Shown: one piece after another, positions 1 through 23,685 of the stretch
Numbering within the stretch: position 1 is the stretch's first letter
Layout: every line of letters begins with the position of its first letter
Virus record (IMG/VR): IMGVR_UViG_3300002851_000032
Span: 1-24,186 of that record
Source: a virus
Strand: one strand, 5' to 3'
DNA length: 24,186 nt
Notes under the pieces: model-generated
Databases searched by the model: none
What the model saw: only the letters and a program-made list of their open reading frames with translations
What the model was told of the DNA's origin: nothing
Program-made: the position numbers and the translations under genes

Positions 1-447
1 ATGACCCCCGATGAGGCCAGAACCGCCCTTCAGGAGCGCATTCCTCAGCGCATCCCCCCGCCGCCGCAGGTGCCGGGCGAGATGGTGCGGGAACTGCGGG
101 AGGCTGGGCTCTGGGAGCGGTTTAGCGCTCTCCGGCGCTATGCCCGCGACACCCGGGCATGGCACGAGTGGCTGGCCGGCCCCGTGGCAGCCCAATGGCG
201 GCGGCTAGGTAGCGGGTTTGCCCCGGCCCTCCGGGGGGCCCTCGAGGGTATGGCCTCCCGCCCTGACCTGGCCCGCCCACTCATCTGGCTGGAGCGGCAG
301 CTGGAGCGGGCCACTCCTCCCCCACCGCCCCCGCCGCCGAAGACGCGGGAGGAGGAGCTGGTGGACCAGGTGGTGCGGGCTCCGACCCTGGAGGAGGCCG
401 TCGATGCGTTCCTGGAGTGGGCGCGGGAGGTGAACGCCAATGAGTGA
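1..447 (+). CDS. Hypothetical protein with polyproline linker
   Basis: I do not recognise this 148-residue protein. The window begins exactly at its ATG, so the ribosome site is not visible and a longer upstream form cannot be excluded. A basic, helix-rich N-terminal part (roughly residues 1-105) is followed by eight consecutive prolines (about residues 106-113) and a short acidic C-terminal helix containing LEEAVDAFLEWAREV. The layout suggests two small helical domains joined by a rigid linker, perhaps an adaptor or replication-associated factor, but that is a guess. Its end overlaps the next gene by 8 bases, so the two are probably translationally coupled. G/C-rich third codon positions support real coding. 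Confidence 0.6.
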   Translation: MTPDEARTALQERIPQRIPPPPQVPGEMVRELREAGLWERFSALRRYARDTRAWHEWLAGPVAAQWRRLGSGFAPALRGALEGMASRPDLARPLIWLERQLERATPPPPPPPPKTREEELVDQVVRAPTLEEAVDAFLEWAREVNANE

Positions 448-823
448 CCGGTGGCATGACGGGCTGGGGCTAGCTGAGGACGCCATCCTTATCGACCTAG
501 GCGCTTGCCCCTGGTGTGGGGAGTACGTGGTGGAGGTGGCCCGGAACGGCCGGGCGGCGGGGCGCAAGCCGCCGGATAGGTGTTGCTTGCGCGGGACCCT
601 GGCCGGGGTGGCCCGCATCCGGGCTGGCATCGAGACCACCCGCAATCCGGAAGAACGCCGGGGGTTAGAGATGGCCCTTTCCGAAGCCATGCGGCATTTA
701 GCTGGAGCGGTCGGGGCGGTGAGCCGGGAGCAGGTGGTGTCTGCGGCCCGGGAAGTGGAGGGGCGCTACGCCCTTCGGGCAGACTGGACCGCCATCCTGG
801 CGAGTATCGGCAAGGGGAGGTAG
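440..823 (+). CDS. Hypothetical protein with putative zinc-binding cysteines
   Basis: This is a 127-residue protein of unknown function. Near the N terminus is a CPWC pair (C23/C26) followed about 20 residues later by adjacent cysteines (C48, C49), an arrangement that could bind one zinc ion. The rest is predicted helical and charged. The ATG lies inside the end of the preceding gene (8-base overlap), typical of coupled phage genes. It ends 8 bases before the next zinc-ribbon gene, so two small putative zinc proteins stand side by side just before the methyltransferase. They could be DNA- or RNA-binding accessory proteins; nothing in the sequence fixes the role. Confidence 0.6.
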   Translation: MSDRWHDGLGLAEDAILIDLGACPWCGEYVVEVARNGRAAGRKPPDRCCLRGTLAGVARIRAGIETTRNPEERRGLEMALSEAMRHLAGAVGAVSREQVVSAAREVEGRYALRADWTAILASIGKGR

Positions 824-831
824 CCGTAGCC

Positions 832-1116
832 ATGCGGTGCGTGAAGTGCGGCAAGGTGGTCAACTACTGGCGGCGCTCTGGTCTCTGCAACGGATGCGGC
901 CCCTTTTCGCCAGAACGCAGGCAGCGCATCCGCGAGAGTTTGGTCCGGTACTATGCCGAACACACCTACGCCAGCGTGGGCCACGGGGAGCCCATGAGTC
1001 CTGTTGAGCGGGAGCGCCTTCTGCGCAATGTGGCCCGGCTGAACCCGGGGCTCCTCCCGCGGCTAATGGAAGCGATGGAGCGCTGGGAGCAGTACCGCTA
1101 CGGGAGGCGGGCATGA
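832..1116 (+). CDS. Small zinc-ribbon protein
   Basis: This is a 94-residue protein starting at the ATG of MRCVKCGK, preceded by AGGGGAGG (813-820) at a reasonable distance. The open frame extends far upstream, but that part is out-of-frame reading of the previous gene. The N terminus carries two CxxC pairs (C3/C6 and C19/C22), a classical zinc ribbon. The C-terminal two thirds is helical and basic, with MSPVERERLLRNVARLNPGL and a tyrosine/arginine-rich end. Zinc ribbons of this kind usually bind nucleic acid or act as protein docking modules; the specific function is unknown. The last four bases (ATGA) overlap the start of the ParB-methyltransferase gene, so translation of the two is probably linked. 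Confidence 0.65.
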   Translation: MRCVKCGKVVNYWRRSGLCNGCGPFSPERRQRIRESLVRYYAEHTYASVGHGEPMSPVERERLLRNVARLNPGLLPRLMEAMERWEQYRYGRRA

Positions 1117-2516
1117 GGACGGAACGCTGGCCCTTGGAGCGCGTCCGTGCCCAGCCCCGGCGGGCGGTGCGGGACGTGGACGCCCTGGCCCGTTCTATCG
1201 CCGAAGTGGGGCTCCTCCAGCCCTTGGTGGTGGCCGAGGACGGCACGCTGCTGGCGGGCTACCACCGCTACCTGGCCCTGCGGGAGCTCGGATGGCAGGA
1301 GGCCCCCGTGGTGGTCCTGGACCTGGACGCCCTCCGGCGTGAGCTCGCCACGTTGGAAGAGAACCTGGTGCGCCACGAGCTCACCGAGCTGGAGCGGGCG
1401 GAACACCTCCGGCGGCAGAAGGAGATCTACGAGCTCCTCTACCCCTGGACCCGGGACGGGGTGCGGCAGAACCTCGCTCTCACCAAAGTTGAGTCTGGCG
1501 ATGAAGACCCAGCGGTCATCGTGTCCGCTGGGTATAAGGGCAATGAGGAAGAAGACCTTAGCCCGATAGACTCAACCCCACCCTTTGCCCGGCATGTGGA
1601 GCGGGTGGCGGGGGTGGACGAGCGCACGGTTCGGCGGCTCGTGCGCATCGCGGAGCGGCTGACCCCAGAGACGAAGGGCATCGTGCGGGGGACGAAGGTG
1701 GAGGACAACCAGAAGGCCCTCCTCTACCTGGCGAAGCTCCCTCCCGAGGTCCAGCCCCGCGCCGCCCGGCTCATGGTGGAGGGCGTGCCGCCCCGGTTGG
1801 CGGCGGCCAGGGCGGAGCGGGAGATGAGGGAAAGCGCCCCCATCCCTGCGGGAGCAGACCCCCTCCTTCCCCCGGAGATCGTCTACATCCACGGTGATTT
1901 TCGGGAGGGCATGGCCAACCTGGTGGACGGCGCCGCTGCCCTGGTCCTCACCGACCCGCCCTATGCCGAGGACGCCGTGGGGCTCTACGGGGACGTGGCC
2001 CGCCACGCCGCCCGGGTGCTGGCGGAGGGCGGCTCCCTCCTGGCGTACGCCGGGCAGTCCCACTTGCGGGAGGTGATGGAGGAGCTGGGACGCCACCTCC
2101 GCTACTGGTGGACCCTGGCCTTGCTGCACCGCCACGGGGGGCAGACCATCTTTGGCAAGGACGTCTGGATCCGGTGGAAGCCCGTCCTGTGGTACGTGCG
2201 GAGCGGAAGGGGTACGGCAGAAATCGTCCCCGACCTGGTGGAGGGTTCCTCCCCGGAGAAGGGCGCCCACCCCTGGGCCCAGGGTGCCGAGGAGGTTCGC
2301 CCCCTCATCCGCGCCCTCACCCTGCCCGGCGACCTGGTGCTGGACCCCATGGCCGGGAGCGGGGCGTTCCTCTGGGCGGCGTACCTGGAGGGCCGCCGAG
2401 CGGTGGGGTGGGAAGTGGACCCCGAGCGCTACGAGCAGGGCCGGGCGTGGCTCATGGAGCAGTACGCCCGCTGGCAGGAGGGGCGGGAGGAGGAGGTTTA
2501 TGCCGCGGTTGACTGA
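1113..2516 (+). CDS. ParB-like domain fused to DNA methyltransferase
   Basis: This 467-residue two-part protein has an N-terminal segment (about 1-110) with ParB/sulfiredoxin-like features: GLLQPLVVAEDGTLLAGYHR, an LGW...PVVV strand, then ENLVRHELTELERAEHLRR. The C-terminal part (about 255-460) is an S-adenosylmethionine-dependent DNA amino-methyltransferase. It has catalytic DPPY at residues 281-284 and the cofactor loop DPMAGSG at 411-417, so the catalytic motif precedes the cofactor motif, the beta-class order. DPPY fits N6-adenine or N4-cytosine methylation. Such ParB-methyltransferase fusions are known in phages, where they mark phage DNA against host restriction or act as orphan enzymes. 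The start overlaps the upstream gene by 4 bases. The end overlaps a PD-(D/E)XK nuclease gene by 17 bases, raising the possibility of a restriction-modification pair. Target sequence unknown. Confidence 0.88.
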   Translation: MRTERWPLERVRAQPRRAVRDVDALARSIAEVGLLQPLVVAEDGTLLAGYHRYLALRELGWQEAPVVVLDLDALRRELATLEENLVRHELTELERAEHLRRQKEIYELLYPWTRDGVRQNLALTKVESGDEDPAVIVSAGYKGNEEEDLSPIDSTPPFARHVERVAGVDERTVRRLVRIAERLTPETKGIVRGTKVEDNQKALLYLAKLPPEVQPRAARLMVEGVPPRLAAARAEREMRESAPIPAGADPLLPPEIVYIHGDFREGMANLVDGAAALVLTDPPYAEDAVGLYGDVARHAARVLAEGGSLLAYAGQSHLREVMEELGRHLRYWWTLALLHRHGGQTIFGKDVWIRWKPVLWYVRSGRGTAEIVPDLVEGSSPEKGAHPWAQGAEEVRPLIRALTLPGDLVLDPMAGSGAFLWAAYLEGRRAVGWEVDPERYEQGRAWLMEQYARWQEGREEEVYAAVD

Positions 2517-3150
2517 CCTCAACGGCCACCACGAGGACCTCCTGGACCGGGTGGTGAGGTACGCGGAGCACCTGGGCTGGCGGGCTGTGCCCGTGGTCTA
2601 CCACGGGGCGCCGGGTGGGGACGTCCTCAGGCTGGTGGACGACCCCACGGCCCTCTACATCCGCACCCTGCCGGACGTGGTCCTCACCAATGGGCGTGAG
2701 TCCATCCTTGTTGAGGTAAAGACCCACGTCAGCGCCCGCTACGCCGACGCCACCCCTGAGCTATTGCCCATCGTGGCCAGCACTGCCCTGTACCGGGTAG
2801 TGGGGGTGCGCACCCTCTACGTCTACGAAGACCCTCACGCCGGAATATCCGGGGCGTGGTGGGCGCACGCGGTCTTCCATGACGTCCCGGTGCGAGCCAT
2901 TTACGTGGGCGCTCAGCGCACTCAGGCATTGGAGCATCTGGCCCGCATCCGCTACTGGCAGCGGATGGGGCTGGTCCCGAGCGAGGTGGAGGTGATAACC
3001 ACGCGCACCAGGGGCTCCGGGGACCCCTACGTGGCCATCCCCGAATCCTACCTTCGCACCCTGCTCCCCTGGCACTACGCCCTCGAGGAGGTCCTGACCC
3101 GGCAGGAGGTGGCCCGTGATAGAGATAGCATGGTGCACAGTGTCCGGTAG
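2500..3150 (+). CDS. PD-(D/E)XK family nuclease, possible restriction enzyme partner
   Basis: This 216-residue protein starts at the ATG of MPRLTDLNGH, preceded by GGAGGAGG (2488-2495). The open frame continues upstream only as a shadow of the methyltransferase. It contains a clear PD-(D/E)XK nuclease core: P58-D59, then after 12 residues E72-V73-K74 (motifs LPDVVL and LVEVKTH), with a preceding helix holding an HEDLLDRVVRYAEHLGW segment. That fold is shared by type II restriction enzymes, Holliday junction resolvases, VRR-NUC and RecB-like nucleases. The 17-base overlap with the methyltransferase gene implies coupled synthesis and favours a joint function. A restriction enzyme matched to the methyltransferase, or a host-DNA degrading or replication nuclease, are both possible. 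The C-terminal half shows no further motif I recognise. Confidence 0.72.
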   Translation: MPRLTDLNGHHEDLLDRVVRYAEHLGWRAVPVVYHGAPGGDVLRLVDDPTALYIRTLPDVVLTNGRESILVEVKTHVSARYADATPELLPIVASTALYRVVGVRTLYVYEDPHAGISGAWWAHAVFHDVPVRAIYVGAQRTQALEHLARIRYWQRMGLVPSEVEVITTRTRGSGDPYVAIPESYLRTLLPWHYALEEVLTRQEVARDRDSMVHSVR

Positions 3151-3181
3151 GTGGTAGGCCGTGGTCCTCCAGGAGGGGCGC

Positions 3182-3355
3182 ATGGCCGGGTACGGGTGGG
3201 GGCGGACCCGCGCTCTCGCAGTAGAGCGGGCCCTGCAAGAGGCTGTACGGAGGGGCTACCGGGTGCCCCTGCGGGCGTACCTGGCCTGGGCAGGAGCCGC
3301 CCTTTCAGACGCACTGGATCACGTCCTGGCAGCGATCCGGGGGCTGGAGAGGTGA
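3182..3355 (+). CDS. Small hypothetical basic protein
   Basis: This is a 57-residue protein starting at the ATG of MAGYGWGR, with AGGAGGGG at 3171-3178 placed well for ribosome binding. An upstream in-frame GTG at 3161 would add seven residues but would put the Shine-Dalgarno sequence inside the gene, so the ATG is preferred. The sequence is mostly alpha-helical (RTRALAVERALQEAVRRGYR and AALSDALDHVLAAIRGLER) with no cysteine and no known motif. It lies between the nuclease and a zinc-binding protein gene with short spacings. Function unknown; a small DNA-binding or accessory helical protein is possible. Confidence 0.5.
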   Translation: MAGYGWGRTRALAVERALQEAVRRGYRVPLRAYLAWAGAALSDALDHVLAAIRGLER

Positions 3356-3360
3356 AGGCT

Positions 3361-3840
3361 ATGAGGGCTAACGTCTTCATCGCCTCAAAACGAAGTGAGG
3401 AGGGGGCCAGGCTCCTCTGGCGCGACGTCCCGGTGGAGACGGCGAAGAGGCTCTGCTCCCTGGAAGAGACCTGCTGGGCGCAGTCCATGCTCGTCTGGGC
3501 CCACTGCGACTCCCTCGGCCTCCACCCCGGAGACCCCGTGGTGGACAACGGGTCCTTGGACCATCTTTTGACCGAGGAGGAGCCTGTGCTGGAACGGGCG
3601 CGGGTGGGTGCCCGTGGCGGAAAGGAGGAAGGGATGAAGCTGGACGAGTTCTACACCGTCCCCTGCCCTGTGGAGGGGTGCGAGAAGAAGGCCACGGTGC
3701 ACAGGAGCATGCCTGACGGGTACACGGGCCTGTGCTCGTGCCAGGCGGCGTGGCTCCGGCTGGGCTGGTCCACCACCGCCCACCGCATCCCCTATTTGGT
3801 GGTCCCGGAGGAGCCGAAGAGGCGGAGGAGGAGGGGATGA
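3361..3840 (+). CDS. Two-part hypothetical protein with C-terminal zinc-binding segment
   Basis: This is a 159-residue protein starting at the ATG of MRANVFIASK, five bases after the previous stop and with only a weak purine stretch (AGAGG) upstream. The first half (1-91) is unlike anything I recognise; it contains SLEETCWAQSMLVWAHCDS and an LTEEEP segment. The second half (92-159) has CPVEGC, then C-x-C about 18 residues later (CSC), a likely zinc site, and a basic arginine-rich end. A strong Shine-Dalgarno sequence and an in-frame ATG lie at the junction (3621-3636). The gene may therefore make both a full-length protein and a separate C-terminal protein, or may be a recent fusion of two genes. 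Its TGA overlaps the next ATG. Confidence 0.6.
   Translation: MRANVFIASKRSEEGARLLWRDVPVETAKRLCSLEETCWAQSMLVWAHCDSLGLHPGDPVVDNGSLDHLLTEEEPVLERARVGARGGKEEGMKLDEFYTVPCPVEGCEKKATVHRSMPDGYTGLCSCQAAWLRLGWSTTAHRIPYLVVPEEPKRRRRRG
3621..3629 (+). promoter_or_regulatory. Internal Shine-Dalgarno sequence inside 3361-3840
   Basis: AAAGGAGGA stands four bases before an in-frame ATG (3634). It is stronger than the ribosome site in front of the full-length start at 3361. Such a site in mid-gene at a domain boundary suggests independent translation of the C-terminal half. Confidence 0.5.
3634..3840 (+). CDS. Possible internally started zinc-binding protein (68 residues)
   Basis: This is the in-frame C-terminal product of the 3361-3840 gene, read from the ATG of MKLDEFYTV. 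It has its own strong Shine-Dalgarno (3621-3629). It would be a 68-residue protein with C11 and C16, then C34 and C36, in the range of small zinc-binding folds, and a terminal KRRRRRG tail that could contact nucleic acid. It is a complete-looking small domain, which favours either dual products or a fused pair of genes. Whether it is made separately cannot be decided from the sequence alone. Confidence 0.4.
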   Translation: MKLDEFYTVPCPVEGCEKKATVHRSMPDGYTGLCSCQAAWLRLGWSTTAHRIPYLVVPEEPKRRRRRG

Positions 3841-4085: not shown

Positions 4086-4252
4086 CCCTGGCGGACCTGC
4101 TTTTGGCCTACGTTCTCGCCATGCTCACGGGGCTCGCCGTCCTGCTTCGCCCTCGCCGCGAGCCCCTGCCGGAGGGGGCGAGCGTGGGGTTTCTGGTGTT
4201 GGTGGGGTTGCTATGGGCGTTGTTTCTCCTCGTACTGAGCCTATGGCGCTAG
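4082..4252 (+). CDS. Small two-helix membrane protein
   Basis: This is a 56-residue protein starting at an ATG overlapping the previous stop. It has two strongly hydrophobic segments, LADLLLAYVLAMLTGLAVLL (about residues 3-22) and VGFLVLVGLLWALFLLVLSL (about 35-54). They are separated by a short basic/acidic loop (RPRREPLPEGAS), so a hairpin in the cytoplasmic membrane is likely. It sits among DNA-metabolism genes, not the lysis genes, and overlaps the likely RusA start by 10 bases. A role in superinfection exclusion, membrane anchoring of replication, or as a toxic peptide is possible but not shown by the sequence. Confidence 0.6.
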   Translation: MTLADLLLAYVLAMLTGLAVLLRPRREPLPEGASVGFLVLVGLLWALFLLVLSLWR

Positions 4253-4593
4253 AGGCCACCCTTCCCTGGCCCCCGAGCGTGAACCACTACTGGGCGACCA
4301 GGGGTAAGAGCCGCTACCTCTCCCCCCACGCCCAGCGGTGGCACAAGGAGGCGTGGGCCATCCTGCGCGCCACGTGGCGGGGGAAGCCCATGCGGGGGGA
4401 GGTGGCGGTGCTCGTCGTCCTTCATCCCCCGGACCGGAGGAGGCGGGACATGGACAATCTCCTCAAGGCCATCCTGGACGCGCTCGTGCACGCGGGGGTG
4501 CTCCAGGACGACTCCCAGGTGGCGGAGCTTCACGCCGTGCGGCGAGAGGCGCGCCGTCCTGGGAGCGTTTGCGTGCGGGTGGAGGCGTTATGA
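4243..4593 (+). CDS. rusA: RusA-type Holliday junction resolvase
   Basis: This 116-residue protein matches the RusA family, dimeric magnesium-dependent endonucleases that cut four-way DNA junctions before packaging or during recombination. The N terminus LPWPPSVNHYW is the family signature. The acidic active site is present as RRRDMDNLLKAILDAL followed by LQDDSQV: D69, D71, K75 and D89/D90, one residue away from the E. coli numbering. This agreement supports the ATG of MALEATLP as the start. An ATG at 4213 with a weak GGTGGGG site would add ten residues. Length is normal for the family (about 120). It overlaps the membrane protein gene upstream and the next gene downstream, so it is co-translated with the small-gene cluster. 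Confidence 0.93.
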   Translation: MALEATLPWPPSVNHYWATRGKSRYLSPHAQRWHKEAWAILRATWRGKPMRGEVAVLVVLHPPDRRRRDMDNLLKAILDALVHAGVLQDDSQVAELHAVRREARRPGSVCVRVEAL

Positions 4594-5096
4594 CCCCGAA
4601 AGAGGCTATAGAGAGGCTGAAACATTGGCCGGAGATGACGGAGCTGGAGAAGCTCCACTGGCTCCGGGTGGCGGTGCAAATCAAGGAGGCCATGATCGTC
4701 AGCGGGCTGGCTGGCCGCCCTCTCCCTTGGGAGGATAGTGAGGACTACATCAGGCTCTACGAGGAAATCCTCGCCATTGTCCATGTGGAGGAGCCCGCAC
4801 TCGTCTTTCGGGCCAGCGGCAATCTCACCCCCGCTGACGGCGAGCTCTGGGAGGTTTGGCGCGAGCTTTCTGCTGACCCTCACGGACTGGGAGGTCCAAC
4901 CCCTCCCGGCACCGAGGTACCGGCCCAATCGGCGGTTTCCGGTGCCGCCTCACCAAAACCGGGCCCCCAAAAATCAACATCTTGGGGCGATACCGCCCCC
5001 ACGGGCGCTCGATGGGCCGGGGGTGCCCGGAGAGGGGCGGGAGAGGGAGGTGGTAGTGCCCAGAAGGTGCACCATCAGGTGCCTTGGCGGGAGTGA
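4590..5096 (+). CDS. Hypothetical protein with doubtful C-terminal half
   Basis: The open frame encodes 168 residues from the ATG of MTPKEAIERL, overlapping the RusA stop by four bases. Residues 1-92 look like a genuine helical acidic protein with strong G/C third positions. From about base 4866 the third-position G/C drops (my hand count is about half), while the +1 frame becomes the better-looking one (about 70%). The remaining residues are a low-complexity Gly/Ala/Pro mix and the DNA contains several hairpins. The natural gene may therefore end or shift frame near 4855-4870, and the annotated 3' part may be accidental reading of a control region. Function unknown; it is the last gene before the packaging genes. 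Confidence 0.45.
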   Translation: MTPKEAIERLKHWPEMTELEKLHWLRVAVQIKEAMIVSGLAGRPLPWEDSEDYIRLYEEILAIVHVEEPALVFRASGNLTPADGELWEVWRELSADPHGLGGPTPPGTEVPAQSAVSGAASPKPGPQKSTSWGDTAPTGARWAGGARRGAGEGGGSAQKVHHQVPWRE

Positions 5097-10541: not shown

Positions 10542-11521
10542 TGCCGCTGACTCTAGCTGAATACAAGTCGGAGATGGTGGACGTGGTCTCCAAGGCGGTG
10601 GTGGACGAGATCCGCAGGTCTAGCTACATCCTGGACAACCTCCCCTTTGACGACACCGCTTACCCGGACGCTAGCGGGTACGGTTGGGTTTACCGCTACC
10701 ACCGCATCGTCACCCCGGCCACCGCGTCCACCCGCGCGGTCAACACGGAGTACACCCCTCAGGAGGCCAAGACCCGGGCGTTCTTCGTCCAGCTCGCTAT
10801 CTTAGGGGGGGCCTTTGAGGTAGACCGCACGCAGATCAACACCAGCGTCTTTGGGGACCGCCTGGCTTTCCAGCTGGAGCAGAAGATCAAGGCGGTCCGC
10901 GACCTCTTCAATCGCCTCTTCATTAAGGGCGATATCGGAGTAGACGCCAACGCCTTTGACGGCCTTGACAAGGCGCTGGTGGGGACTGCTACTGAGCACA
11001 GGGCAGGCAGTGTAGTGGACCTCTCCACTTCCACGGCTCTAGACAACAACTACAAGACCTTTCTGGACGAGTTTGAGCTGTGGCTGTCGTCCCTGAACGG
11101 CAGGCCGTCCGCCATCCTGGGCAACCGCCTCTCCATCGCCAAAATCCGTGCGGTGGCCCGCCGCTCTGGGTACCACTCCCTGTCCGAGGACGCGTTTGGC
11201 CGACCGGTGGACACCTACGCAGGCATCCCCCTCATTGACCTCGGGGAGTACGGGGCCGTGAACAGCTACGTCATCCCCGTGCAGACCCGCACCATCGGGG
11301 GTACCCCCACGAGCGGCCTGACGGACATCTACGCCGTGCGCTTCGGCATGGACGGCGTGCATGGCATCGCTCCTCAGGACCGCCAGGTGTTTATCCGCGC
11401 TTACCTCCCGGACCTCACCCAGCCGGGGGCCGTGAAAAAGGGCGAGGTGGAGATGTTAGCCGCCATCGCCTTAAAGACGACCAGGGCCGCCGGGGTGTTC
11501 CGCAACGTGAAGGTCCTCTAA
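10541..11521 (+). CDS. Major capsid protein
   Basis: This 326-residue protein directly follows the scaffold gene, starting in a TAATG overlap with AGGAGG upstream. Length and order match HK97-fold capsid subunits of the SPP1 gp13/P22-like groups. Visible segments include an N-terminal helix (LAEYKSEMVDVVSKAVVDEI), a beta-rich strand region with TEYTPQEAKTRAFFVQLAIL, the spine-helix-like stretch FGDRLAFQLEQKIKAVRDLF, and a later domain with AGIPLIDLGEYGAVNSYVIP. C-terminal strands EVEMLAAIALKTTRAAGVFR close the fold. No N-terminal delta domain or cleavage site is evident. It should be the most abundant protein of the phage; codon use is strongly GC-biased. Confidence 0.88.
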   Translation: MPLTLAEYKSEMVDVVSKAVVDEIRRSSYILDNLPFDDTAYPDASGYGWVYRYHRIVTPATASTRAVNTEYTPQEAKTRAFFVQLAILGGAFEVDRTQINTSVFGDRLAFQLEQKIKAVRDLFNRLFIKGDIGVDANAFDGLDKALVGTATEHRAGSVVDLSTSTALDNNYKTFLDEFELWLSSLNGRPSAILGNRLSIAKIRAVARRSGYHSLSEDAFGRPVDTYAGIPLIDLGEYGAVNSYVIPVQTRTIGGTPTSGLTDIYAVRFGMDGVHGIAPQDRQVFIRAYLPDLTQPGAVKKGEVEMLAAIALKTTRAAGVFRNVKVL

Positions 11522-20698: not shown

Positions 20699-21186
20699 TG
20701 CCGTATTACTTTCGGAGAACAGACGGGAGCCAGGTTTACGCCTCTTTCACCGAGCTGGGCGAAGTTCTTTCTTACCGGGTGGACGCCCATCTCATGCGGG
20801 GGCCAGACACTACCACATGGGTAGCAGTTGGAGACGGTCTCCCGATGCCCGTGGAGGCGAACATCAGCCGCTTTTACACCGCTTCCACCGCCCCAGAGGT
20901 CCTCTCGGCTCTCTCCTCACTGAGGGTTGAACTAGGCGTGAACTCGGACGGCGTAGTGGGGGTAGGCTACGAAAGCCCCTTGGGGGCGTCTGGCACCCTG
21001 GAGTGGGAGCGCCCTGTCCTGGCGGTGCGGGCGCTGGAAGTGCGGGAGGGAGGTGCCCGGTACGTCGTTGTGCGGATGCGGTTTGTGGTAGGAGGGCAGA
21101 TCATCCGGTTATCCCGGTGGTCCACAGGGAGTGATGAGATTGTGGACGACACGGGAGCCCATATAGTTTTTGCGGAGGAGGCTTGA
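20698..21186 (+). CDS. Hypothetical tail tip protein
   Basis: This 162-residue protein starts at the ATG of MPYYFRRTDG, overlapping the previous stop by one base. An upstream extension of the frame is a shadow of the previous gene. It is rich in beta strands and in short repeats of Val/Gly/Thr (VELGVNSDGVVGVGYESPLG, ALEVREGGARYVVVRMRFVV). No family is recognised. Its position between the Dit-like protein and the tail fibre suggests a baseplate or fibre-attachment protein. Confidence 0.5.
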   Translation: MPYYFRRTDGSQVYASFTELGEVLSYRVDAHLMRGPDTTTWVAVGDGLPMPVEANISRFYTASTAPEVLSALSSLRVELGVNSDGVVGVGYESPLGASGTLEWERPVLAVRALEVREGGARYVVVRMRFVVGGQIIRLSRWSTGSDEIVDDTGAHIVFAEEA

Positions 21187-21187
21187 C

Positions 21188-21907
21188 ATGGCGACGAAGC
21201 GGATTAGAGACTTGCCGAGCAACACGCCCACGCCCGGCGATGTTGTGGCCGTGGACCGCCCCGGTGGTGGGACGTTTCGGATTCCGTTGGGGCAGGCAGG
21301 CGGCATCCCCTTCCTGGACGTCGCTGGGGCGCTCGCTGCCAGCGACGCGCACCTAAATAGGGGGTCTGTGACCAGCGCCGTAGACTGGAACACCCTCACC
21401 AATGCGGGTACATATGAGATAGCGAGCGGGGCCTTCGGCACCGGCAGCGCCAACACGCCGCCCGCCGTGACCAAGCAGGGGCACCTGCTGGTTCTCAAAA
21501 CATCGGGGGCCACCACCCAGGTGTACGTCCCCAAGGGCAACGACCCTGGCATCTATTGGCGGCAGTACGCCGGGGGCACCTGGTCTTCCTGGGCCACGGC
21601 CGGTGTGATGTATGGGTCCAACTCTAACGGCTCCTACATTCGGTTTGCGGATGGGTCCCAAATCTGCTGGGGGGTAAACGTTGGCGCTGGTCCAGACCCT
21701 CAGACCATCATCTACCCTGCGGCGTTTGTGTCGCCCCCGGCGGTGGTGGTAAACCTATCTGAATGGCCACCTGGGCATATCTCCGTGGATTCCCAATGGG
21801 GGTATGGCACTACCCAACAGAGGTTCCGGAAATACTACGCAGACGGGACTGTGTACGCCAGTACTGCGTACCGGTTCAACTACATCGCCATCGGGAGGTG
21901 GAAATGA
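21188..21907 (+). CDS. Tail fibre protein with pyocin-knob-like segment
   Basis: This 239-residue protein starts at ATG 21188 with GGAGGAGG upstream. The N terminus (KRIRDLPSNTPTPGDVVAVD) fits the common attachment segment of short tail fibres. Residues about 55-140 (SAVDWNTLTNAGTYEIASGA, KQGHLLVLKTSGATTQVYV, IYWRQYAGGTWSSWATAG) match a pyocin-knob-like receptor-binding segment. The C-terminal 100 residues (YIRFADGSQICWG; VSPPAVVVN; ending RFNYIAIGRWK) resemble the receptor-binding tip of gp37/H-type lectin-like fibres. The fibre would bind a host surface structure, perhaps a glycan. Assigned with good confidence as a fibre; the exact receptor is unknown. Confidence 0.8.
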   Translation: MATKRIRDLPSNTPTPGDVVAVDRPGGGTFRIPLGQAGGIPFLDVAGALAASDAHLNRGSVTSAVDWNTLTNAGTYEIASGAFGTGSANTPPAVTKQGHLLVLKTSGATTQVYVPKGNDPGIYWRQYAGGTWSSWATAGVMYGSNSNGSYIRFADGSQICWGVNVGAGPDPQTIIYPAAFVSPPAVVVNLSEWPPGHISVDSQWGYGTTQQRFRKYYADGTVYASTAYRFNYIAIGRWK

Positions 21908-23040: not shown

Positions 23041-23417
23041 GGACCATAGTAGCGGTGACGGCGGTTCTTGGGGTGGCTCTGGCTCAGGAGGGGAGCATCC
23101 CCACGGACATTAGACAGTGGTTTGCCTCCACGGCGTCCCTGGCGGCGGTGGTGGCCGCCCTGGTAGCCCTGGTGAGGAAGCACATCCTGCGGACGCTGGA
23201 CGGGCTCGCCGTGGTGGTACTGAGCCTCGTGCTGGGCGTGGGGCTGGCCTATGTGGGGAAACTGATGGGCTACCTGGGCGGGGACTGGCTCCTGTTTGGC
23301 CTCTCTGCCGGGCTCATGGCCTCCGGGGGGTTAGACCTCCTCCGGAGCGTGGCACGGGGGAGCGGCGATGCGAAGGGCGATACTGGTACTGACGCTAGCC
23401 GTAGCCGTCTCCGGTAG
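23037..23417 (+). CDS. Holin-like membrane protein
   Basis: This 126-residue protein directly follows the endolysin gene with an ATGA overlap, the standard place of a holin. Hydrophobic segments occur at about 3-16 (IVAVTAVLGVALA, could be a signal sequence or first helix), 32-46 (TASLAAVVAALVALV), 57-77 (LAVVVLSLVLGVGLAYVGKL) and 85-100 (LLFGLSAGLMASGGLD). The C-terminal tail is charged. Three or four membrane helices and a charged C terminus fit holins that open the cytoplasmic membrane for the endolysin. Its last 50 bases overlap the next gene in another frame. Confidence 0.72.
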   Translation: MRTIVAVTAVLGVALAQEGSIPTDIRQWFASTASLAAVVAALVALVRKHILRTLDGLAVVVLSLVLGVGLAYVGKLMGYLGGDWLLFGLSAGLMASGGLDLLRSVARGSGDAKGDTGTDASRSRLR

Positions 23418-23685
23418 CGCCCTGGCGGGTGGCCGTGCGGCGTGCCGGGTGGTCTACGGGCCGCCCCTCTGGGCGGTCTGCTACACCGAGCAGGTCGTCT
23501 GGGCTCAGGGCCCGCTGGAGGTTGCTTTGGGGGTGGAAGGCCGCACCTGGCCTGAAGCGCAGGTAGCCCCGTACACCCTCCTAGGGCTCTACCTGGAGAG
23601 GTGGTGGGCCACGCTAGAGGTGGCCCGCCCCCTCCTCGGGGCCTCGCCATGGCGGTGGGCCATCGGCGTGGGGACGCGCTGGTAA
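23368..23685 (+). CDS. Exported protein, candidate outer-membrane lysis factor
   Basis: This 105-residue protein starts at ATG 23368 inside the holin gene (50-base overlap, different frame), with GGGGGAG upstream. It has a clear signal peptide (MRRAILVLTLAVAVSGSALA, cleavage probably after ALA at residue 20) and no lipobox. The mature part has two cysteines (C26 and C38) that could form a disulfide. It contains alternating hydrophobic/polar stretches (LEVALGVEGRTW; LLGLYLERWWATLEVA; WRWAIGVGTRW) like short beta strands and ends in an aromatic residue, as outer-membrane proteins do. Thermus-type hosts have an outer membrane, so a lysis or surface role is plausible. Inference only; no family match known to me. 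Confidence 0.6.
   Translation: MRRAILVLTLAVAVSGSALAGGRAACRVVYGPPLWAVCYTEQVVWAQGPLEVALGVEGRTWPEAQVAPYTLLGLYLERWWATLEVARPLLGASPWRWAIGVGTRW

Follow-up and report, generated by a model that had tools for sequence, protein, structure and literature searches.

The window analysed here, a virus contig of 24,186 bases from IMG/VR, encodes a nuclease of a new family within a conserved phage methylase-nuclease module, in which the gene of a ParB-methyltransferase fusion is overlapped by that of a predicted PD-(D/E)XK nuclease. The same gene pair recurs in very different viruses and may therefore be a viral version of restriction-modification. A restriction-modification-like phage module is the most likely reading, and about half of our confidence rests with it.

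Restriction-modification lets bacteria distinguish their own DNA from DNA of foreign origin. The usual reading of phage ParB-methyltransferases is that of orphan anti-restriction enzymes, an alternative that the first-pass annotation of the window had also raised. The recurrent linked nuclease, which may be its cognate partner, would set the present enzyme apart from this usual kind. Should a clade of ParB-methyltransferases be accompanied by a dedicated nuclease, these phages would carry an offensive or exclusion system and not a means of protection, a role of the kind proposed for marseilleviruses.

The ParB-methyltransferase gene

The putative ParB-N6-adenine methyltransferase (467 aa) is encoded at 1113..2516 on the plus strand. 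Pfam ParB_N and N6_N4_Mtase both match above cut-off, the latter with E 6.8e-11 and 43 bits against a cut-off of 26.7, and PHROGs 3264 (ParB) and 67 (methyltransferase) match as well. The ParB N-terminal domain (residues 8-85, 1134..1367, plus strand; ParB_N E 4.5e-9) is related to the CTPase domain of Noc and Spo0J and matches Noc (7ng0, E 1.1e-10). Of the CTP-binding motifs, GERRxRA appears as GYHRYLA and ENxQR/ENLQR as ENLVR, i.e. the key arginines are kept and GERR is changed; judged from these motifs, a CTP-gated ParB clamp is possible. Besides the ParB_N and methyltransferase parts the protein contains an HTH-like linker region. The catalytic DPPY motif (residues 281-284, 1953..1964, plus strand) precedes the SAM-binding motif DPMAGSG (residues 411-417, 2343..2363, plus strand), the order of class beta methyltransferases. 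Pfam domains and both motifs bear out the initial description of a DNA amino-methyltransferase with an N-terminal ParB-like domain.

Its product is probably N6-methyladenine, judging from the family and from BCE_0392, a ParB-methyltransferase of a Bacillus cereus prophage with m6A activity (PMC3459991). Like the window protein, BCE_0392 has a ParB domain fused to a phage m6A methyltransferase (PMC3459991, PMC5512222). The passages cited report no PD-(D/E)XK partner for BCE_0392, whereas the methyltransferase gene of the window is overlapped by the nuclease gene.

The nuclease gene and its family

The predicted PD-(D/E)XK nuclease (216 aa, unnamed family) lies at 2500..3150 on the plus strand and overlaps the methyltransferase gene by 17 bases. 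A Shine-Dalgarno run, GGAGGAGGAGG, is read at about 2486-2496 on the plus strand, inside the methyltransferase gene and just 5' of the ATG at 2500; together with the overlap this strong ribosome-binding site suggests translational coupling of the two genes. The overlapping arrangement exceeds chance: 211 codons stay open past the methyltransferase stop, which occurs in only one of 1000 dinucleotide shuffles, and the nuclease frame is common to the homologues, with dN/dS of about 0.23-0.30 (NG86; approximate, since dS of 0.7-1.4 is partly saturated). Overlap, coordinates and the catalytic residues D59, E72 and K74 are all as first annotated.

Nine distinct members of the nuclease family were collected, via methyltransferase loci and then via the nuclease itself. 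The catalytic segment D59 ... E72-V-K74 is located at 2674..2721 (plus strand), and a C-terminal GSGDP motif (residues 172-176, 3013..3027, plus strand) is the signature of the family. Y34, R55, D59, K74, E87 and GSGDP are invariant in the alignment of all nine; at position 72, eight of them have E or D, and L089 has C (ECK) as aligned. The window nuclease resembles a member from a freshwater phage weakly but genuinely (pairwise E 6e-6 at the N-terminus), and GSGDP forms a separate second match.

The window nuclease has no above-threshold family in Pfam, PHROGs, NCBIfam, PADLOC or PDB sequences, so its family is an addition to these libraries. In tblastn searches the nuclease had no match among 50,697 phage records or 72,556 plasmid records, P0007 has no match among phage records, and a single scan of GTDB genomes, which reaches close relatives only, found no close relative. 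L002, the sole hit when viral and genome contigs were scanned with a single sequence, was rejected as a spurious match of 39 residues with no matching gene.

Predicted fold of the nuclease

The AlphaFold2 model of the nuclease (pLDDT 74) adopts a PD-(D/E)XK fold with D, E and K intact, so the predicted structure agrees with the nuclease class first assigned from motifs. Foldseek places an archaeal Hjc on top (2wcw, E 5.5e-5), and the SPARDA nuclease, R.SwaI and HincII lower. VIA-align gives Z 9.9 for Hjc 2eo0 (rmsd 3.8 over 124 residues), 9.2 for fusellovirus D212, about 8.5 for RecU and 6.5 for EcoRV. Since restriction enzymes stand further down in these comparisons, the matches favour the main rival explanation: the nuclease would be a structure-specific enzyme similar to Hjc or RecU, one that trims or resolves branched intermediates of replication and packaging, and the methyltransferase a separate anti-restriction enzyme co-transcribed by happenstance. 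We consider this unlikely on balance, and it is the best-surviving of the alternatives. A predicted PD-(D/E)XK fold as such cannot separate a resolvase from a restriction enzyme.

Pfam Hjc (PF01870) is the nearest library match, which lends some weight to a resolvase, but its scores of 12.7, 17.0 and 15.0 bits stay below the cut-off of 21.1. With archaeal-type Hjc, including Hjc_15-6 of a Thermus phage (PMC8805305), the window nuclease shares the predicted fold and the D-EVK motif. It differs from Hjc in its greater length, the additional C-terminal GSGDP, the coupling to a methyltransferase and the lack of a detectable sequence match to PDB chains. Moreover, Hjc motif I, written (G/P)X4EX9-11G(F/Y) or GX4EX9-11G(F/Y) (PMC8805305), is absent by inspection from the N-terminal helix, and E12 is not invariant in the family. 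Because motif I is missing and the scores are sub-threshold, the nuclease is not filed as Hjc. A resolvase would also leave both the GSGDP motif and the recurrent methyltransferase partner unexplained.

Recurrence of the gene pair

The adjacency that the first-pass annotation proposed to look for in other genomes is recurrent. The same methyltransferase is located directly upstream of a nuclease of the window type in six other lineages and 231 bases away in a seventh (L046), in unrelated phages. When the methyltransferase alone is used as query, this nuclease is the next gene in L016-L020 (gap of 2 bases), in L021/L022 and in L041 (overlap of 4 bases). The 231 bases in L046 hold a disrupted small HTH ORF; it is HTH-like, at L046 3714-3835, and an in-frame TGA interrupts it. 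The search with the nuclease reaches L086, L087 and L089, each with this methyltransferase immediately upstream and overlapping, and L085, which has none, so that the methyltransferase is present in three of the four lineages reached independently through the nuclease. L085 is the only lineage found in which the two are not linked.

ParB_N is recognised by Pfam in the pair-carrying methyltransferases of L046, L086 and L087 and only by our own profile in those of L016 and L041; no ParB was seen in the L089 methyltransferase. Four of the seven ParB-positive methyltransferases have the window-type nuclease, compared with none of the 29 ParB-negative ones (non-redundant set found via the methyltransferase, with L046 added; hypergeometric probability about 6e-4, calculated by hand).

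Both genes are under purifying selection, and over eight pairs the divergence of the methyltransferase is correlated with that of the nuclease (Mantel r 0.68, p 0.0008; without close pairs 0.64, p 0.03). The correlated distances indicate long joint inheritance, which by itself does not imply joint function; shared phage ancestry can be another source of such co-divergence. Chance neighbourhood in a mosaic accessory region, i.e. an orphan anti-restriction methyltransferase beside an unrelated nuclease moron, would be in keeping with the accessory position, with Riverbug lacking the pair and Meiothermus phage MMP7 carrying a different one near its terminase, and with L085 having one gene without the other, but it is very improbable, weakened as it is by the correlated divergence and by the presence of the pair in at least seven further lineages.

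A nuclease without methyltransferase

The L085 nuclease is about 60% identical to that of the window, its motifs are intact, and the locus is syntenic with L046. At the DNA level L085 and L046 align through the upstream gene to about 12 bases past the methyltransferase start, and the alignment resumes in the nuclease; the junction of the missing L046-type methyltransferase lies at L085 3900-4010. Next comes a gene for the DNA polymerase III beta clamp; only 0.5 kb of contig is left downstream. No ParB-methyltransferase, N6_N4_Mtase or D12 methyltransferase was found elsewhere in this 31.7-kb record, an incomplete contig. As the pair is common to distant lineages, loss of the methyltransferase in L085 is the simpler reading.

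The L085 nuclease may be harmless alone, act on other substrates, need the methyltransferase to cut or enjoy host-supplied protection. Its occurrence where no methyltransferase was found speaks against a restriction enzyme that is obligatorily toxic, and a nuclease kept without methyltransferase beside a sliding-clamp gene suits a resolvase similar to Hjc or RecU. Tested branch by branch for relaxed constraint, L085 shows 15 replacements and 10 synonymous changes, and L046 shows 11 and 14 (p 0.40); these changes are too few to tell. The first-pass annotation had taken nuclease homologues without a neighbouring methyltransferase as evidence against a restriction-modification pair; L085 is such a case, in one lineage and on an incomplete contig. 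The first-pass reading of the genes as a restriction-modification pair stands in part: the recurrent pairing and the predicted nuclease fold favour it, and the archaeal Hjc as best structural match and the solitary L085 nuclease count against it.

Source virus, host and flanking genes

The pair is phage-borne, as first suggested: the IMG/VR contig carries RusA and large terminase genes recognised by Pfam. Short segments of the window match the Thermus phages Riverbug and phiKo and the Meiothermus phages MMP7 and MMP17 in megablast searches. Further matches of 34-43 bases, with 95-100% identity, occur in Thermus plasmids; in the seven plasmids examined they fall within CRISPR arrays of several repeat types, the repeats recurring at intervals of 60-78 bases, and one of these arrays is near cas2. 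The matched segments include window 3459-3499, 3533-3570, 4347-4383, 4685-4718 and 11308-11341, among others, and none was found inside the methyltransferase and nuclease genes. The phage group is targeted by CRISPR arrays of T. thermophilus and T. parvatiensis. These spacer matches assign the host to Thermus, a bacterium of hot springs, and the host range accordingly includes T. thermophilus and relatives.

Upstream, window 1-823 resembles by inspection the C-terminus of Riverbug gp39 followed by gp38. The gp38 homologue (440..823, plus strand; by inspection and from the DNA alignment of L046 and L085) is found directly 5' of the methyltransferase in L046 and directly 5' of the nuclease in L085. 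Downstream, a small ORF resembling Riverbug gp44 (3161..3355, plus strand) is followed by genes similar to gp43, and the window from 3161 onward corresponds by inspection to gp44-gp40. Riverbug lacks the nuclease, and this methyltransferase is absent among the annotated genes of the region. As Riverbug possesses homologues of the flanking genes but neither the nuclease nor, among its annotated genes, this methyltransferase, the two genes seem to form an accessory cassette.

The RusA Holliday-junction resolvase of the window is encoded at 4165..4593 (plus strand; Pfam RusA 67.8 bits). The Riverbug record has two RusA-like matches, 20971-21288 and 23279-23542, the second largely outside annotated genes.

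Proposed function of the module

The most likely mechanism would involve both genes as one translationally coupled phage module. The ParB-methyltransferase would mark phage DNA with N6-methyladenine at sites set by its target-recognition region, with the ParB and HTH parts probably helping through DNA binding. The metal-dependent PD-(D/E)XK endonuclease would cut unmarked DNA, be it the host chromosome, a competing phage or a plasmid, and the phage would spare itself. The genes, their overlap, the catalytic motifs, the predicted nuclease fold and the long joint inheritance are the basis of this explanation; that the genes are translationally coupled, that the nuclease is active and sensitive to methylation, which DNA it targets and whether ParB has a loading role are matters of inference. 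The pair is small, derived from a thermophile and easy to express, which makes the role of ParB and the sensitivity to methylation directly testable.

A resolvase similar to Hjc or RecU would fit the position of the genes between replication genes and terminase. RusA, however, exceeds its cut-off in five of the eight records tested (those of the window, L046, L085, L020 and L022, but not of L086, L087 and L089), and a second resolvase would be redundant in these five.

Rather improbable, and clearly behind a resolvase, is a joint action of ParB, methyltransferase and nuclease on the phage's own DNA, e.g. by marking or nicking sites for replication or packaging. The BCE_0392 papers offer a parallel, with m6A activity, reported nicking-associated concatenation and a suggested role in replication or packaging (PMC3459991, PMC5512222); the genes are also near the terminase, and methyltransferases of phrog_67 can adjoin sliding clamps. 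Such an action is disfavoured by the nature of the recurrent partner, a dedicated PD-(D/E)XK protein, and by Riverbug, which packages its DNA without the nuclease.

The restriction-modification-like module has a precedent in chloroviruses and marseilleviruses, which possess complete restriction-modification systems; for their restriction endonuclease, degradation of host DNA or exclusion of other viruses has been reported or proposed (PMC7253447). As in the window, an adenine methyltransferase and an endonuclease are adjacent in these viral genomes (mel_015/mel_016 in marseillevirus), and self-marking is proposed for those pairs as it is here (PMC7253447). The window shares with type II systems a methyltransferase with DPPY-type and SAM motifs and a linked gene with a predicted nuclease fold; unlike the viral type II systems it has a ParB-HTH module on the methyltransferase, a nuclease without sequence match to solved restriction endonucleases, and tailed phages as carriers. 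The pair is not filed as type II restriction-modification, since a common specificity of the two enzymes and protection by methylation are hypothetical here. An exact-phrase paper search for phage-encoded restriction-modification gave no match.

Other downstream partners

The remaining ParB-methyltransferases are overlapped or abutted by other small proteins (L042; L044/L045/L047; gp53 of a Methanoculleus virus with L054), and L048 has a small downstream protein beside a methyltransferase without ParB. EVK motifs are present in the L042 and L048 proteins. The pattern D...hhh(E/D)hK occurs in 3 of 218 other ORFs, and in the downstream ORFs of L041, L044, L047 and L048. Homology of these other downstream proteins to the window nuclease was not found; a profile comparison of the other downstream families (A7, A8 and A9) with each other is uninformative, with 2-3 sequences each. 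The small proteins are a lead towards interchangeable nucleases. On a wider view, the module may represent a widespread, so far undescribed class of phage self/non-self systems, in which ParB would load the adenine methyltransferase and a partner nuclease from one of several interchangeable families would destroy unmarked host or rival DNA; we regard this extension as speculative, with a chance of somewhat over one in five.

Small proteins follow the methyltransferase in L042, L044, L045, L047, L048, L054 and L003; some are PD-(D/E)XK-like, and none has a convincing Pfam or PHROG match. For the downstream protein of L044/L045/L047 a nuclease is not claimed, the AlphaFold model being too poor (pLDDT 57) and Foldseek returning nothing significant. 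In Methanoculleus virus Blf4/L4768, gp52 is a homologue of the ParB-methyltransferase (31% identity) whose gene, as in the window, overlaps a downstream gene, here by 11 bases and encoding 189 aa (gp53). Unlike the window nuclease, gp53 is a nuclease only putatively, and no homology between the two is detectable. The genes of L014, a contig labelled as a Pseudomonadota MAG, are nearly identical to gp52-gp53; it is probably a misbinned virus contig.

Two other candidates were set aside: the ParB neighbours of the Mu-like phages POA1180 and Aussie are by inspection unrelated to the nuclease, and the "restriction endonuclease" beside ParB in a bajarodcaudo virus looks small and HNH-like and is located upstream, not downstream.

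In the related Meiothermus phage MMP7 (L013 29912-31211) the gene of a D12 adenine methyltransferase shares 11 bases with a DUF559-like gene, and the two lie immediately 5' of the terminase. The DUF559-like protein is of PD-(D/E)XK type by a sub-threshold match, and this methyltransferase-nuclease pair is unrelated to that of the window, which suggests that the pairing of methylase and nuclease arose more than once in these phages. A DUF559/MTES_1575-like protein, by eye similar to the one of MMP7, is encoded just 3' of the window-type nuclease in L041 (2262-2594).
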